Shown here: positions 1 through 30,312 of the stretch, piece by piece
Position numbering within the stretch: the first letter of the stretch is position 1
Layout: each line of letters begins with the position of its first letter
Source of the DNA: a virus
Length of the DNA: 30,312 nucleotides
Strand: one strand, 5' to 3'
Virus record (IMG/VR): IMGVR_UViG_3300044961_000340
Span: 1 to 30,312 of that record
The notes under the pieces: model-generated
Told to the model about the DNA's origin: nothing
The model's input: only the letters and a program-made list of their open reading frames with translations
Database searches by the model: none
Translations under genes and position numbers: made by a program

Positions 1-103
1 CAGCCCGATGAGGCCCAGTGAAGCACGCATCTGAAGTTCGTCGCTCACTGTAATCCGATTACAGTGAAAGGTCCAGTTGAATGGCCAGGCGTAGGGTGGG
101 ACA
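1..103. repeat. left copy of the 103-bp terminal direct repeat
   Basis: Bases 1-103 are identical to 30159-30261. The copy holds one palindrome at 46-66: arms CACTGTAATC and GATTACAGTG around a single C. Beyond base 103 the two copies diverge. An exact repeat at both ends suggests a circular or terminally redundant molecule opened inside a repeat cluster. The repeat carries no convincing gene; reading frames across it only translate the repeat. Confidence 0.9.
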
Positions 104-1948: not shown

Positions 1949-2323
1949 ATGGCCGGACAAGAGGGCGGGCAGCAAAGAAGAAGGGATAGATGGAACTGCG
2001 GACGTTGCCATGAATGCGGCACAGAACTGCTCATAGTGATGGACGGAGAGCATTGGTGCTGCACCTGCAAGACCTACCGTCGCTACCATAGCCATGGCTG
2101 GGCATATACCGCCAGCGACCCGAATAGTAACCAGTGTCCGAAATGGACATTGGCAATCAGCAAACGCAAATGGAAGCAAATAGTCAAAACGTGGGGCATA
2201 AAGCATGGCAGGCAGCGAGAGGGGAAGAAGAAGGACGATGATGGAATGAAGACAACGGCGAGTGAAAGGATTAAGGATGATGGCGGAAAGACGGATGTTG
2301 TCGGCTTCGATTGCCGAGGATGA
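1949..2323 (+). CDS. zinc-ribbon protein, 124 aa
   Basis: ATG 1949 has a strong AAAGGGAGG ribosome site. The N-terminal third holds a four-cysteine ribbon, CHEC at about residues 20-23 and CCTC at about 37-40, separated by a short hydrophobic turn. A Tyr/His-rich stretch and a Lys/Arg-rich C-terminus follow. This is the look of a small nucleic-acid-binding zinc ribbon. The last 47 bases overlap the start of the replication initiator in another frame, so the two are probably translationally coupled. The C-terminal basic tail may be partly shaped by that overlap. The exact family is not identified. Confidence 0.65.
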   Translation: MAGQEGGQQRRRDRWNCGRCHECGTELLIVMDGEHWCCTCKTYRRYHSHGWAYTASDPNSNQCPKWTLAISKRKWKQIVKTWGIKHGRQREGKKKDDDGMKTTASERIKDDGGKTDVVGFDCRG

Positions 2324-3332
2324 GGCGTTGAATCGATTGAGCATAGAAGCTCAATTGTTGTTTTTGATGACGATTCCACATTTAGACCGTGATGGTCTGA
2401 TAAGTGGTAATCCCCGTGTGTTTTTTGGCAAGGTATGTCCATTGCGGGATGAATTGCGGGATCAGATATTGAGTCTCATCAACGAATGGGTTGATCAGGG
2501 TTTGGTTATTCGGTACGAAGGGAGTAATGGGCCGGTTTTGTTTTTTAAGTCTTTTCGGCGTCATCAGATAGGTTTGGATTATGCACGTGATAAAGCAAGT
2601 CGATTTCCGCCTCCTCCAGGCTGGTTGCGGACGCCTGAGGGGTTGGTGCCTGAGGATCCATATCTGGCGGTGACGTTGGCGGAGTCGTTTGACGTTCGTT
2701 CTGGGTATCGACGGGTATTGCTGGAGCATGCGGCGGCGGGTGGTTTGTCGGTAGCTGACGAAAATCTTACAAAAACGACTTCGCGACAAGATCGCGATAA
2801 TGTCGCGACAACATCGCGAAGACTTCGCGATAATGTCGCGTCTAAGATAAAGATAGATATAAAGATATCTGATGATGATGGCCAGATAGATATTCCTCCA
2901 GCCACTGTTAATTGTGATGGGGGGGGGTGCAGGGGGGGGGATGCGAGCGAGGAAGATTTGCGAGCGTTCTGTCTGATGTTGGTGGATAAAGTGTTTGGAA
3001 CGACGTGGGATGGTGTGAAGGAGTATGTAGAGAAATTGATGTACGACGATTTGCTGAGGCTGATGGGTTGGTTGTGGAAGTGTATGGTGCGTCCGAAGTG
3101 GAGTGCGACGATCGGGGTCGGGTTTATCCGCTCGATGATGGTGAAGGGCTCGACAGCGAGTCTTACCACGGATGAGCATCAGGCGATGGTAAATGCATTG
3201 GATATGTTTGTATTGGATCCGGGTGTTGAGTTGTTTGTTGAAGAAAAAGTTGAGCGGAATGAATTATTGTGTCGATATGTTCCTGAGGAATATAGAGACA
3301 TAATTGTGTGGAAAGGGGAAGAAGAGGGATGA
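2277..3332 (+). CDS. replication initiator / phage replisome organizer-like protein
   Basis: About 351 residues. Residues 1-100 resemble the winged-helix N-terminal domain of phage replisome organizers: a helical start, a run ending in LDRDGLISGNP, and a helix-wing segment through LFFKSFRRHQ. A linker (about 165-222) is encoded by iterons, an AT-rich run and two G tracts. A C-terminal helical domain (about 225-345) contains several Trp residues. ATG 2277 is chosen because GAAAGGA lies 6 bases upstream; an in-frame GTG at 2262 is possible. Known analogues (lambda O, Gram-positive phage DnaD-like proteins) bind iterons within their own genes, and the same layout is seen here. The domain match is by eye, so the initiator role is inferred from the N-terminus together with the embedded iterons. 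It is followed by an ATGA-coupled gene and parA. Confidence 0.7.
   Translation: MMAERRMLSASIAEDEALNRLSIEAQLLFLMTIPHLDRDGLISGNPRVFFGKVCPLRDELRDQILSLINEWVDQGLVIRYEGSNGPVLFFKSFRRHQIGLDYARDKASRFPPPPGWLRTPEGLVPEDPYLAVTLAESFDVRSGYRRVLLEHAAAGGLSVADENLTKTTSRQDRDNVATTSRRLRDNVASKIKIDIKISDDDGQIDIPPATVNCDGGGCRGGDASEEDLRAFCLMLVDKVFGTTWDGVKEYVEKLMYDDLLRLMGWLWKCMVRPKWSATIGVGFIRSMMVKGSTASLTTDEHQAMVNALDMFVLDPGVELFVEEKVERNELLCRYVPEEYRDIIVWKGEEEG
2781..2900. other. putative origin of replication (11-bp phased iterons plus AT-rich element)
   Basis: TCGCGA occurs at 2781, 2792, 2803, 2814 and 2825, and TCGCGT at 2836. That is six copies with an exact 11-bp period, one turn of B-DNA. Because 11 is not a multiple of 3, the protein repeats only every 33 bp, so the periodicity is selected at DNA level. 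Immediately downstream (about 2841-2900) the sequence turns AT-rich (AAGATAAAGATAGATATAAA and on), as expected of a DNA-unwinding element. The layout copies the lambda origin inside gene O. Function is inferred. Confidence 0.65.
2919..2940. repeat. two 9-G homopolymer tracts in the initiator gene
   Basis: G runs of nine occupy 2919-2927 and 2932-2940, separated by TGCA. They encode a Gly-rich linker (DGGGCRGGD) at about residues 214-222 of the initiator. Runs of this length are slippage-prone, and any length change other than three would frameshift the initiator. They sit just beyond the iterons and AT-rich element. Confidence 0.85.
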
Positions 3333-3514: not shown

Positions 3515-4228
3515 ATGACGAAGATTATTGCAGTGGCGAATCATAAGGGCGGTAGTGGGAAAACGACAACCACCTATTATCTGGGGCTGGCGTTGGCGGC
3601 ATCAGGGCGCAACACATTGCTGATCGATTTTGACGACCAGGCGACATTAACAAACAAACTTTATAAAGCCTGGACTCCAGGGCAGACAACAATCGCTGAT
3701 GTACTGGACGGGATGGCGCTGGCGACGGCACTTTGTCAATACGATGTTGGGTTGCAGTACGTACCCGCAGACCACCGGTTGGCGTGGATTGCGGCACGGA
3801 TGCAGGCGTCCAGCCCTAACCATGCCTTCCTGCGCCGTGCCTGGCAGCGGGCCAACATGCAGCCGGAGTATGTGCTGATCGACTGCCCGCCAAGCGCCGG
3901 GGTGCTGCTGATCAATGCGCTGGCTCTGGCGGATTGGGTGCTGATCCCGGCAACGCCAACAGAGGAGAGCTATGCCGGCGTGCTGAGGATGCAAGCGATG
4001 ATTCAAGAGATCGCTTGCACGCTCAACCATCCGGTTAAACCGCTGGGCATAATGGCGACAATGGTATCGCCGTCATCAATAAGCGAGCAGAAGTATCTCA
4101 ACTTGATGGGGGAGATGGAGATAGGGAGAGTGCCTCGAAGGGTGGGGCAGACAGCAGATGCGGAACTGCGTTCGACGTATGCAGAGGTGGCCAAGACGGT
4201 AATTCGGATTCTGGAGAGTGAAAGATGA
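3515..4228 (+). CDS. parA: ParA-family partition ATPase
   Basis: A 237-residue Walker-type ParA/Soj ATPase. The deviant Walker A motif KGGSGKTT is at residues 11-18 and the Walker A' segment LLIDFDDQA at about 37-45. The Walker B-like VLIDCPPSAG lies near residue 120, followed by the ILINALALAD-type helix. It lacks the N-terminal DNA-binding extension of type Ia plasmid ParA proteins, so it resembles the short type Ib or chromosomal Soj form. The ribosome site is GGAGGAAGG before ATG 3515. The stop overlaps the start of the ParB-like gene (ATGA). Such ATPases bind nucleoid DNA and move ParB-centromere complexes so that each daughter cell inherits the plasmid. Its presence argues that this phage persists as an extrachromosomal replicon. 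Confidence 0.92.
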   Translation: MTKIIAVANHKGGSGKTTTTYYLGLALAASGRNTLLIDFDDQATLTNKLYKAWTPGQTTIADVLDGMALATALCQYDVGLQYVPADHRLAWIAARMQASSPNHAFLRRAWQRANMQPEYVLIDCPPSAGVLLINALALADWVLIPATPTEESYAGVLRMQAMIQEIACTLNHPVKPLGIMATMVSPSSISEQKYLNLMGEMEIGRVPRRVGQTADAELRSTYAEVAKTVIRILESER

Positions 4229-5946
4229 GTATGCTGAGCGGGTTGATCAATATGGAGGAGAAAACGACGTTGCTCAGTATCGATCAGATCAAAATCGATG
4301 GAGGCACACAGATGCGTGCCGAACTGCACGAGCAGACCGTCGTCGAGTATATGGAAGAGATGGCGCCGGTGGGCTGGTCGAAATTTCCGCCCGTGATCGT
4401 TTATCACGATGGCGAATCATACTGGCTGGCGGATGGATTTCATCGCGTCGAGGCATTCCGTCGTGTTACCGCCGAATTAGGACTACAGGATACCAAAATA
4501 CCCGCAGAGGTACGCGCTGGCACGCGTCGGGATGCGATTCTCTATGCAGCATCTGCCAATGCAACTCACGGTTTGCGACGAACGAACGCAGATAAACGTC
4601 GCGCAGTTGAAACATTGTTACAGGACGAAGAATGGCGACAATGGTCAGATCGTGAAATCGCACGACGTTGCCACGTAAGCCACAATTTCGTCAAAGAAGT
4701 TCGTCGCTCACTGTCATCCGATTACAGTGAGCGACGATACACAACCAAACACGGCACAACGACGATCATGAACACTGCCATGATTGGCACGTCACGTACT
4801 GCGAACATGGACGAGATTAAGGCGGCGACATGGGGCGACAAACCATATGCACAGATATGGGAAATACAGAATGCGTTGAGGCGTTGGCAACACGGCTTGA
4901 CGGCTACCGAGCTGCGTATACTGGCGAAATCCCGCACCGGTGATTGGTTTAAGTGTCAGGCTGCACTGGGCGAGATGCGTTATCGGAGTCGTGATCTGGT
5001 GCAGGCGCTGAATAATCTTGCTGATGAAATGGAGCAAGAAAGAGCAACAGAAACAGATGCACCAAACATGCCAGTGCCAGTGCAGTCGGCGGAAGGTGAC
5101 CGCTCGTTGACCGGCGCCGATCCGTGGGCGGCGGCCTGGAACTCGACACAGGCATATCAGACTGAGGAACGAGTTGACCGAGTCGCAAAGGCCATGTTGC
5201 CGTGGGTTCAAGACTGGCTGGATGACACCGGGCGCACCTGGCGGGATGTGGCGGATCACAATCCGCAATACGCCATTTCGCCATTCCGCCAGGCGATAGA
5301 AGCTGAGTGGCGTCGACGCAAACTTGATCCAATCAGCAGCGCGCTGCTGGTAAAGGTGATCCGGCGAATTTTTGAGATGATGGCGCTTGCCAATAAGCAG
5401 CAGCAGCAGGATGTCGCTGAACAATTGTTCCAGTGCATCAAGCACAGTGCGACGCTCAATAGAGAACAACAGCGGATCGTCCTTAAAGAGATGATGCTCG
5501 GCAGAGGAAAGCAATATCATCAAATGCTGGCGCCGTGGCTGAATATCGATGAAATAGAGCCAGGCGAGTTGCGCGTCGCCGCGCGGAGGGCGTACATGCG
5601 GCTGCTCGATGCGCAAATGCGATCGGCGGATATGGAAATGCCGGTTGCCGACACGCCGGCGGTGGTTGAGGAGACTCTGCTCGTCGATGCGCCGCTGACG
5701 GCGGCGGATATGGCTGTATTGAAGCCTGCGCAGCAGCCTGACACGCGCACGGCGCAGATGAGCAGGCTGATCAACATATACAGCCAGACGATTGCGACCT
5801 TTGACGAGTACAGCGCATTGACCGGCTGTTTTGTTGAGGTGCTGCCGGCAAAGCGAGAACTGGAGAAACTAATCAAGCATTTACGGCGAGAGATCAGCTT
5901 GCTCAACGGAGAGATCGTATCGGAGGAGGCATTCGCATGCTTTTGA
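4225..5946 (+). CDS. large ParB-like protein (ParB/Srx N-domain plus HTH)
   Basis: 573 residues. Residues 15-110 match the ParB/sulfiredoxin-like N-domain, with LADGFHRVEA at about 68-77 in the place of the GERR-type nucleotide motif. Residues 120-162 form a ParB-type helix-turn-helix (WSDREIARRCHVSHNFVKEV). A YTTKHGT segment, common in phage ParB-like proteins, follows, then a long variable C-terminal half with acidic and Gln-rich linkers. It is much longer than chromosomal ParB (about 280-300 residues). It is ATGA-coupled to parA, so it is the likely centromere-binding partner. Codons for residues 160-171 contain a 35-bp palindrome related to the terminal repeats. A start at Met-10 (4252) is possible. 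A role as a general phage DNA-binding regulator cannot be excluded. Confidence 0.82.
   Translation: MSMLSGLINMEEKTTLLSIDQIKIDGGTQMRAELHEQTVVEYMEEMAPVGWSKFPPVIVYHDGESYWLADGFHRVEAFRRVTAELGLQDTKIPAEVRAGTRRDAILYAASANATHGLRRTNADKRRAVETLLQDEEWRQWSDREIARRCHVSHNFVKEVRRSLSSDYSERRYTTKHGTTTIMNTAMIGTSRTANMDEIKAATWGDKPYAQIWEIQNALRRWQHGLTATELRILAKSRTGDWFKCQAALGEMRYRSRDLVQALNNLADEMEQERATETDAPNMPVPVQSAEGDRSLTGADPWAAAWNSTQAYQTEERVDRVAKAMLPWVQDWLDDTGRTWRDVADHNPQYAISPFRQAIEAEWRRRKLDPISSALLVKVIRRIFEMMALANKQQQQDVAEQLFQCIKHSATLNREQQRIVLKEMMLGRGKQYHQMLAPWLNIDEIEPGELRVAARRAYMRLLDAQMRSADMEMPVADTPAVVEETLLVDAPLTAADMAVLKPAQQPDTRTAQMSRLINIYSQTIATFDEYSALTGCFVEVLPAKRELEKLIKHLRREISLLNGEIVSEEAFACF
4702..4736. promoter_or_regulatory. 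35-bp palindrome inside parB, candidate centromere/ParB site
   Basis: Arms of 17 bp (CGTCGCTCACTGTCATC and GATTACAGTGAGCGACG) flank a central C at 4719 with one mismatch. Its core (4709-4729) and left flank match the terminal-repeat palindromes with a single base change. Palindromic sites inside parB are known for Bacillus subtilis parS in spo0J, hence the proposal. Binding is not shown. Confidence 0.6.
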
Positions 5947-5973: not shown

Positions 5974-6078
5974 CTCCGGCTGATGGTCTGCGCACCAGCC
6001 GGAGCACACGGATGCGATGTCGCCGCATCCGACGCTTATTATACAAGGCGGATTGCAGCGACAGCAATCCGTTTTTTT
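5974..6078 (+). terminator. three tandem hairpins ending in a Rho-independent terminator
   Basis: Hairpin 1 has stem CTCCGGCTG (5974-5982) with CAGCCGGAG (5996-6004). Hairpin 2 has CGGATGCG (6009-6016) with CGCATCCG (6024-6031) and a 7-nt loop. Hairpin 3 has CGGATTGC (6049-6056) with GCAATCCG (6064-6071), a 7-nt loop, then seven T residues (6072-6078). Hairpin 3 is a classic intrinsic terminator downstream of parB. The loops of hairpins 2 and 3 are complementary over 6 nt, so the structure may act as an attenuator before the next gene. Confidence 0.85.
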
Positions 6079-6097
6079 GTTTATTAGCAGAACACCA

Positions 6098-7765
6098 ATG
6101 AGCCTGATCGACAAACTATTCGCCATCACTGTCGCCATCGTAGCCGCCATATTCGGCGGGTTATTGCTTCTCAACCGTGACAGTGCCGTGCGCATCGGTG
6201 GACACATCGAACGCTTTGTCGCCGACGTTCTGCAATTGACGCTGTATTGCTTGATCTTCATCATCATTTTCTCCGCCGTCGCCGGCCTGGTTTTCCTCTG
6301 GGCATTTATCAGCAAACGGCGATTGGAGAACATGCGACAACGGGACGGCTCCTATCCCCTCCAGCGGATCAAAATCAATGGCGGCTGGATATACGTCGAT
6401 CCCAACAAGATCATCGCACCAGCCATCGCTGTTGGCGGGCGCGGCGCGGTAGAGCTATTCACGGCGGATGCAGAGCTGCACCTGCGTCACGCCATCGAGC
6501 GCGCCAAAGTCAGCCAGATGCAGGCGTTGGTTCCCGGCGATGCCGCAATCGAAAGTCGTTACGGTTCGATGTACCGACCCGGTGCTGTTTTCAACAACGC
6601 TACCGGTCGTTACCTGGCGAATGCTTATGAACGAGTGCAGCGTCAGTTGCCGCAGCCGCCAGCAGCGCCGGAGCCGATGCCGGAAGCACCAGCCATGCAG
6701 CGCATCCGCCTGAGCGATGCCATGAACCGCTGCATTCAAACGCAGCTCATCGCCGGGCAGGCTGACGATGGAGCGTTGGCGATTTTCAATCCGCTCTCCA
6801 GCATTCACGGCGGCATTATCGGTGCAACCGGCACGGGCAAAACGACCAGCGTCGGATACAGCCTGGTAGCGCAGGCGTTGCGCACTGGTTACCACGTCGT
6901 CATCATCGATCCCAAAGGCGGCGTCGACTGGTCGCCGTGGTCACAGCATGTAGAGTGGCATGAGTCGACGCCGGATGTGTTTCCGCTTCAGGTCGAGGCG
7001 CTTTGGGCAGAACACGAGCGCCGGATGCGTCTGGTGCGCGAAGCGAACGTGCGCACTATCGACGACATCGGCGGCGTTCCGCATGTCATCGTCGTAATCG
7101 AGGAGTACGGCGACCTCATCAGCCAGTTGCGACGTGGTGACAGACGCACCGCCGACGCCACCGACAACCTGCTCGACCGGCTCATGCGCCTCAGTCGTGC
7201 CAGCGGCATTCACCTGCTAATGATTGACCAGTATCCGGAGGAGTGGTCGCAGCAGGTGATCGGCAACACCAAGTGGCTGGCGACTTTCCGCCTTGGGCCG
7301 AACCAGGGCGCAAAGGTGCGACAGTACAACGCCGACCGGTTGCCGGACTATGGGCGTTTTATTGTGCGTGAGCGAGAATACAACGCATGGTTTGCTGCGC
7401 CGTATCTGGAAAAGATACTGTCGTTTGTGCCGGCGAGCACGTTGCGTGTCATCGATGGCGAGTTCACCGTTCAGCCCGATGGAGGGGTGGCTACCTCTGG
7501 CGAACAGTCCATGAACGGCGCCATGAACGGCGCCATGAACGCACCGTCTACGCTGGAGGGCTGGTACGAGTGGACGCTGGCGAACTACCTTCCGCATCAT
7601 CCTGAACTTCTCCAGGTGGACGCCAACGGTCGAGGCATCGGCGTGCGTGCGCTGGCGGAGGCGATGGCAGCGCATGGACGGGGCGACGTTTCACAATATG
7701 AGGCGATGAAAGGCGTTGCCAGCGAAGTCGCCAAGCGATTGAGAATGAATTTTCGTGCGTCTTAA
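6098..7765 (+). CDS. membrane-anchored FtsK/TraB-like DNA translocase ATPase
   Basis: From ATG 6098 the product is 555 residues. An upstream in-frame start at 6017 would run through the terminator hairpins and is rejected. Two membrane helices lie at about residues 5-25 and 48-72. A cytoplasmic linker with a Pro-rich stretch follows, then a RecA-like motor with Walker A GATGTGKTT at 242-250 and Walker B VIVVIEEYGD at about 329-338. The C-terminus (about 480-555) contains a 12-bp tandem repeat encoding NGAMNGAM and then a helical, possibly winged-helix tail. This plan is that of FtsK/SpoIIIE and of TraB-type conjugal pumps, which move double-stranded DNA through membranes. Its job in a phage could be transfer, segregation or dimer handling. 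It ends tail-to-tail with the late operon. No ribosome site is obvious. Confidence 0.8.
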   Translation: MSLIDKLFAITVAIVAAIFGGLLLLNRDSAVRIGGHIERFVADVLQLTLYCLIFIIIFSAVAGLVFLWAFISKRRLENMRQRDGSYPLQRIKINGGWIYVDPNKIIAPAIAVGGRGAVELFTADAELHLRHAIERAKVSQMQALVPGDAAIESRYGSMYRPGAVFNNATGRYLANAYERVQRQLPQPPAAPEPMPEAPAMQRIRLSDAMNRCIQTQLIAGQADDGALAIFNPLSSIHGGIIGATGTGKTTSVGYSLVAQALRTGYHVVIIDPKGGVDWSPWSQHVEWHESTPDVFPLQVEALWAEHERRMRLVREANVRTIDDIGGVPHVIVVIEEYGDLISQLRRGDRRTADATDNLLDRLMRLSRASGIHLLMIDQYPEEWSQQVIGNTKWLATFRLGPNQGAKVRQYNADRLPDYGRFIVREREYNAWFAAPYLEKILSFVPASTLRVIDGEFTVQPDGGVATSGEQSMNGAMNGAMNAPSTLEGWYEWTLANYLPHHPELLQVDANGRGIGVRALAEAMAAHGRGDVSQYEAMKGVASEVAKRLRMNFRAS

Positions 7766-28812: not shown

Positions 28813-28859
<47 letters not shown>

Positions 28860-28924
28860 CGGATCAAACCGTTGACAGGGTGCAGATCAGCCGTTTTTCT
28901 CTCTGGAGAACACCTGATCTATAC

Positions 28925-30025: not shown

Positions 30026-30312
30026 AGCCATTCAGCCCGATGAGGCCCAGTGAAGAGTGAAAGGTCCAGTTGAATGGCCAGGCGTAGGGTTGGACACGCA
30101 TCTGAAGTTCGTCGCTCACTGTAATCCGATTACAGTGAAAGGTCCAACCGGAGCCATTCAGCCCGATGAGGCCCAGTGAAGCACGCATCTGAAGTTCGTC
30201 GCTCACTGTAATCCGATTACAGTGAAAGGTCCAGTTGAATGGCCAGGCGTAGGGTGGGACACGCATCTGAAGTTCGTCGCTCACTGTAATCCGATTACAG
30301 TGAAAGGTCCAA
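30026..30312. repeat. terminal repeat cluster with three palindromes
   Basis: Three modules alternate here: A (ending CAGCCCGATGAGGCCCAGTG), B (GCATCTGAAGTTCGTCGC, then the palindrome and AAAGGTCC) and C (GTTGAATGGCCAGGCGTAGG). The palindromes, with arms CACTGTAATC/GATTACAGTG around one C, lie at 30117-30137, 30204-30224 and 30282-30302, 87 and 78 bp apart. Bases 30159-30261 equal 1-103. In this stretch of about 290 bp nothing codes for a protein. It may be a centromere, a transfer recognition site or a host-type dispersed repeat. Confidence 0.85.

Follow-up and report, generated by a model that had tools for sequence, protein, structure and literature searches.

Internal parS sites are known in spo0J, and the canonical chromosomal parS is a 16-bp TGTTTCACGTGAAACA-type site. 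Phages often encode orphan ParB-like proteins, for most of which neither the DNA target nor the function has been established. Related orphan ParB folds bind CTP, ATP, GTP, or nothing, according to a survey that covered nucleotides and domains (Kaljevic 2025, PMC12704722). On the Streptomyces linear plasmid SCP1, parAB1 is surrounded by three identical inverted repeats to which ParB1 binds, and one of the three lies within parB1 (PMC13245405). The operator of StrR is experimentally known and reads GTTCGActG-N11-CagTcGAAC (PMC8306873, PMC8406272).

Here, we analyzed a 30,312-nt stretch of DNA from a virus record (IMGVR_UViG_3300044961_000340; the whole stretch is called the window), which contains terminase, portal, capsid, and integrase genes. 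As in SCP1, a parB-like gene of the window carries an inverted repeat, and copies of its core lie around the parA-parB operon.

RESULTS

A palindrome within the parB-like gene

The features of the window to which we refer are as follows.

3515..4228, plus strand: ParA-like ATPase gene (phrog_164, E 2e-42; Pfam AAA_31), with a 4-nt overlap with parB
4225..5946, plus strand: gene of the ParB-like protein P0001 (phrog_1033, E 3e-22; ParB-CTPase fold, helix-turn-helix, beta-hairpin wing, long C-terminal part)
4648..4725, plus strand: helix-turn-helix codons, residues 142-167, from the structure model
4701..4737, no strand: embedded palindrome TCGTCGCTCACTGTCATCCGATTACAGTGAGCGACGA, inside the parB-like gene
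4729..4773, plus strand: codons of the predicted wing hairpin, residues 169-183, tip K175-H176-G177, covarying with the outer half-site
46..66, no strand: intergenic copy of the palindrome core, upstream of the gene at 133-549
30117..30137, no strand: intergenic copy of the core, in a tandem array with 78/87 bp spacing
30204..30224, no strand: intergenic copy of the core, probably overlapping the left-end copy in the circular genome
30282..30302, no strand: intergenic copy of the core

The AlphaFold2 model of P0001 had a mean pLDDT of 86.8. Its 72-row alignment comprised only the window protein and proteins of related loci. In the model, an N-terminal ParB fold is followed by a helix-turn-helix (helices 142-149 and 153-167) and a beta hairpin (169-173/179-183), which we read here as a wing. 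Foldseek with P0001 returned ParB, Noc, Spo0J, and KorB (E 1e-6 for ParB/Noc; E 5e-5 and TM 0.50 for KorB), and the A1 family profile matched ParB chains at 2e-8.

The palindrome at 4701-4737 is the strongest of the whole window. It is 37 bp long, with 18-nt arms, a 1-nt centre, and one mismatch, and it begins in the codons for the end of the recognition helix and reaches those for the first wing strand. An earlier note on this DNA had described it at 4702-4736 with 17-nt arms, which is the same object.

Intergenic copies of the core

The 21-bp core occurs four times outside parB in the window, where none was expected (100 shuffles). Positions 33-67, and their equivalents at the other copies, are identical to 4696-4730 at 34 of 35 bases, GAAGTTCGTCGCT included, as the earlier note had reported (about 35 common bases with one substitution and a shared flank). 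The four positions that it gave for these copies also hold. However, they are not separate sites at two ends: bases 1-109 of the contig are repeated at 30159-30267, so that the ends overlap, and the near-identical contig G001 reads through the end junction and holds three core copies there. The copies therefore form one intergenic tandem array of three or four members, flanked by the integrase gene, which points left, and the early operon, which points right.

When 257 Gb of cellular genomes were searched for the core, three matches were found. The core, whose abundance across host chromosomes would have marked it as a generic repeat in the terms of the earlier note, is therefore not a generic dispersed repeat in the cellular genomes covered by this search. 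One of the three matches is a decayed relative of the parB-like gene: a fragment at a contig edge of Aminobacter sp. J41 (L035:461-481), in which the helix-turn-helix and the linker palindrome are retained.

Because the array begins ~220 bp from the integrase start, its copies could be recombination or attachment sites of that enzyme, with the parB copy a chance occurrence or a decoy. This is very improbable, since the in-gene palindromes of relatives have no intergenic copy, and a candidate att sequence resembling a tRNA 3' end lies across the integrase, on the side opposite the array. The latter sequence, at 28815-28880, just downstream of the integrase gene, resembles the 3' half of tRNA-Gln with anticodon CTG and is a probable attP core; ARAGORN found no complete tRNA there.

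In the related phage contig G002, the palindrome CACTGTCATCCGATGACAGTG is present both in parB and in the intergenic region, with a core unlike that of the window. The intergenic site of G002 is a 47-bp perfect palindrome with flanks that differ from those of its parB copy, and the intergenic site of L028 is identical to it. In the window, TAATC/GATTA is found at the intergenic copies and TCATC/GATTA, an intermediate form, at the parB copy. The left flank of the intergenic copies is of the parB type and the right flank of the intergenic type, as if a parB copy had recombined into the array.

The exact G002 core was also met in two other viral contigs, which were not counted as evidence. In L029 (10314-10334), it lies inside a portal gene, and the family member of this contig, L078, has another palindrome. 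In L026 (1216-1570), it lies in a hairpin cluster upstream of a capsid gene, made up of different short palindromes including TCACTGTCATCCGATGACAGTGA and a repeated TGTTCCTTTCGGGAACA.

A family-wide palindrome at the helix-wing junction

Relatives of P0001 were gathered from plasmids, phages, and viral contigs. For the viral contigs, alignment queries were required, as a single-protein ParB query found one relative there and none in genome contigs; the alignment queries brought the viral relatives to ~570. A search with ParA gave relatives only at 30-33%. The pooled set contained 115 non-redundant genes of phages and plasmids, and an earlier set contained 81 non-redundant linkers. One of 190 Alphaproteobacteria genomes had a strong relative, so the family is mainly phage- and plasmid-borne in this sample.

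A palindrome of ~22-25 bp was present between the recognition-helix and wing codons in 75 of the 115 genes (65%), with at least 9 of 11 symmetric pairs. The same threshold was reached by 1.9% of 2563 windows elsewhere in these genes and by 4.3% of synonymous shuffles. With at least 10 of 11 pairs, it was found in 56/115 genes, compared to 0.27% of other windows and 0.96% of synonymous shuffles. A stricter count gave 41 of the 81 linkers, against 10/1992 equal windows of the same genes and 7/1620 synonymous shuffles. The pattern CT[GT]-N10/11-[AC]AG with inner symmetry was likewise found in 41/81 linkers versus three occurrences in 79,212 nt elsewhere in the genes. About one-third of the family genes lack a clear palindrome.

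The palindromes vary in sequence from gene to gene but share CTG-N10/11-CAG and one homologous position. On two plasmids of Candidatus Chlorohelix, for example, two paralogues are near-identical except for the helix-turn-helix and the palindrome, and they carry different perfect palindromes at the identical position. Relative to the reading frame, the palindromes take three different registers (e.g., SLGTVPSE, VTANVRSE, and LSGNGFQI), which indicates that selection acts on the DNA. The innermost pair was kept in 28/33 and 12/12 cases, and the inner 10 pairs contained no G.U. Together with the registers, this points to a DNA dyad and not to an RNA hairpin. A transcript of the gene would hold a perfect long inverted repeat, but selection for an mRNA hairpin is hardly credible and was rejected: with centres of 0-1 nt, an RNA hairpin would have no room for the innermost pair, which is nonetheless conserved; no inner mismatch is of the G.U kind; copies exist in intergenic DNA; and the palindrome covaries with a DNA-binding wing.

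The terminal unit of the window is tandemly duplicated, as a mobile palindromic repeat inserted in frame might be. Yet such a repeat, or chance, is the least probable explanation of all, close to negligible, because the sequences differ between genes while the position is constant, shuffles reach only 1-4%, and the core is nearly absent from the 257 Gb; the survey thus already contradicts it.

In 29 other contigs, the site is single and lies inside the parB-like gene, and a search for second palindrome copies in these contigs found none. Extra intergenic copies were seen only in the phage family of the window, beside the parA-parB operon. Two relatives have other arrangements. In a ParA-linked one (G006, L047:4652-4692), the linker palindrome is absent, and a palindrome of 41 bp, the only copy on the contig, lies instead toward the 3' end of the parB-like gene. 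In phage MW202545 (L042:3477-3520), TACTAGTCAGACTAGTA occurs twice in the linker of the ParB-like gene.

Match between wing motif and half-site

The outer half-sites fall into two classes, TCACTG and [T/C]ATCTG. Each class goes with one wing motif, [KR]HG or R[GNS]G, and this held for 44/44 genes and for 18/18 new loci, that is, for 62/62 genes when pooled, with 15 changes on a tree from which the palindrome and wing were left out. Well-supported branches hold only 4 of these 15 independent half-site switches (sign test p 0.125), and because the wing codons adjoin the palindrome, co-inheritance is possible. Protein columns before the palindrome had z values of at most 4.0 versus 13.8, and recognition-helix residues correlated only weakly with half-site class, the signal lying in the wing. 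The C and T were invariant in all 66 half-sites of the odd class.

The sequences by themselves show that the palindromes exist, that they sit at one fixed place across the family, that selection acts on the DNA, that wing motif and half-site agree, and that the cores match within each phage. The family-wide position, the 62/62 match, and the StrR-type spacing make it very probable that the embedded palindromes are the cognate sites of the ParB-like proteins. Through these three lines, the earlier reading of the copies as sites of the ParB-like protein receives strong, though indirect, support.

Genomic context and possible roles

As in partition systems, a ParA ATPase gene stands beside parB in the window, and several identical inverted repeats lie near parAB. 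The overlap of parA with parB points toward a centromere and makes one plausible here, as do the identical sites near the operon, of which parB itself contains one. The presence of an integrase, the att-like tRNA sequence, and the lack of a canonical ParA-binding motif speak against simple plasmid-style partition. The motif, (L/F/I)G(K/R)G(L/F/I), is absent from the P0001 sequence, and P1 ParB likewise lacks it (PMC12704722). Whether partition is the main job of the sites in the phage of the window is, we infer, about evenly balanced. In the family as a whole, a ParA-type gene or motif is near only 3/81 members, and most relatives have no adjacent parA. This, together with replication-gene neighbours, indicates that partition is not the general function of the family, for which an autoregulatory, replication, or spreading role may apply.

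A StrR- or KorB-like regulator of the divergent integrase and early promoters would fit the placement of the intergenic array between them, the StrR-type spacing, KorB among the fold matches, and the missing parA in most relatives. The in-gene site would then be an autoregulatory roadblock or a spreading nucleus, with ParA incidental. We regard this as possible but doubtful, given that in the 29 relatives the sole site is in the gene and none is at a promoter, which is unusual for a simple operator.

Less probable still, and in our view unlikely, is that the palindrome serves as part of a replication origin, with the ParB-like protein acting as initiator in the manner of lambda O. The lambda ori does lie inside the O gene (PMC4488673), and replication genes are frequent neighbours in the family: the phage helicase phrog_16 is directly downstream in 19/72 cases and second in 13/37, a primase is present in 8/37, and a RusA resolvase is upstream in 13/52. 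Against an origin, there is a single palindrome and not iterons, no AT-rich element was found beside the embedded palindrome (deviation at most +0.05), and a distinct initiation-like gene of the window (phrog_1408, 2262-3332) contains iterons of its own. These TCGCGA-type iterons at 2775-2840, with 11-bp spacing, are probably a second self-embedded cis site and likely the replication origin. A pac-site idea (a site in a packaging gene) was rejected, as the neighbours are replication genes and terminase is rare. Downstream of parB, the window has an FtsK/HerA-like translocase gene (6017-7765), and G002 has one too.

With parA, several sites by the operon, and the separate initiation-like gene with its own iterons favouring a parS-like role, the best reading of the sites in the window is as parS-like loading sites, perhaps operators too.

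DISCUSSION

We propose that the ParB-like protein recognises the palindromes through its winged-helix domain. Each protomer of a pair would take one half-site (consensus TCACTG or [T/C]ATCTG, with 10-11 nt between the two), and the wing hairpin that follows the recognition helix would read, or help to read, the outer bases. Binding itself, the dimer mode, any NTP dependence, and partition are steps that we infer. One site would lie in the protein's own gene, in the codons of the helix-wing junction, so that the shuffling of phage modules would not part the protein from its site, the two being passed on as one cassette. In the phage family of the window, the site would also have been copied into an intergenic array that separates the integrase from the divergently oriented early operon, where the copies would most likely serve as loading sites for a ParAB partition or DNA-positioning complex. 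This explanation as a whole (winged-helix sites, self-embedded, and parS-like in the window) appears reasonably likely.

Internal parS sites and origins within initiator genes are already known, and so is, therefore, this kind of arrangement; the earlier note had pointed to internal parS sites in other parB genes, and SCP1 parB1 is one (PMC13245405). In the open-licence papers searched, we found no description of a family-wide, self-encoded site that is fixed at the helix-wing junction and obeys a wing/half-site code, and the words 'palindrom', 'embedded', and 'own gene' are absent from the main text of Kaljevic 2025 (PMC12704722). We consider it likely that a large phage family of ParB/StrR-like winged-helix proteins self-encodes its site in the helix-wing codons with a readable wing-to-half-site code, which makes protein and target one cassette and predicts the specificity of hundreds of orphans. 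If the palindromes are cognate, each gene reveals its own target, and the binding sites of many uncharacterised phage proteins could be read from sequence alone. This hints at why, in general, a DNA-binding protein might have its cis site within its own gene: the mosaic reshuffling of genomes would then not separate the two.

Compared to canonical ParB-parS, Noc-NBS, and KorB-OB, the family has the same ParB-CTPase fold with a helix-turn-helix and a palindromic site, but the site differs in sequence and length. In place of the canonical chromosomal parS, there are TCACTG half-sites with 10-11 nt between them. The family further differs from canonical ParB in that the predicted wing covaries with the outer bases and in that most members are orphans without ParA. 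It belongs to the same broad group as the orphan phage proteins with a ParB-CTPase fold, which include methyltransferase fusions like those of the Chlorohelix plasmids (Kaljevic 2025, PMC12704722). Lambda O and ori-lambda share with it a cis site inside the gene of the binding protein, but ori-lambda has four iterons and an AT-rich element, whereas the family has one dyad (PMC4488673). Mycobacteriophage RedRock carries a phage-borne parABS, as the window does, but its parS consists of eight 8-bp direct repeats flanking the genes, and RedRock has no integrase (PMC7157519).

SCP1 ParABS1/ParABS2 resemble the window in having identical parS repeats at the parAB operon and one in parB. The SCP1 sites are 13 and 19 bp long with a sequence unlike that of the window, and the available part of that report describes no family-wide position rule or wing/half-site match (PMC13245405). 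A kinship of the proteins with StrR is suggested by annotation, relatives on phages and plasmids being labelled 'streptomycin biosynthesis regulators'. StrR/CmlR-type operators and the family palindromes have CTG-N11-CAG or ACTG-N11-CAGT in common (PMC8306873, PMC8406272). The outer flank GTTCGA of StrR is replaced in the family by TCA or [T/C]AT, and StrR sites lie in target promoters, whereas the family sites lie inside their own gene.
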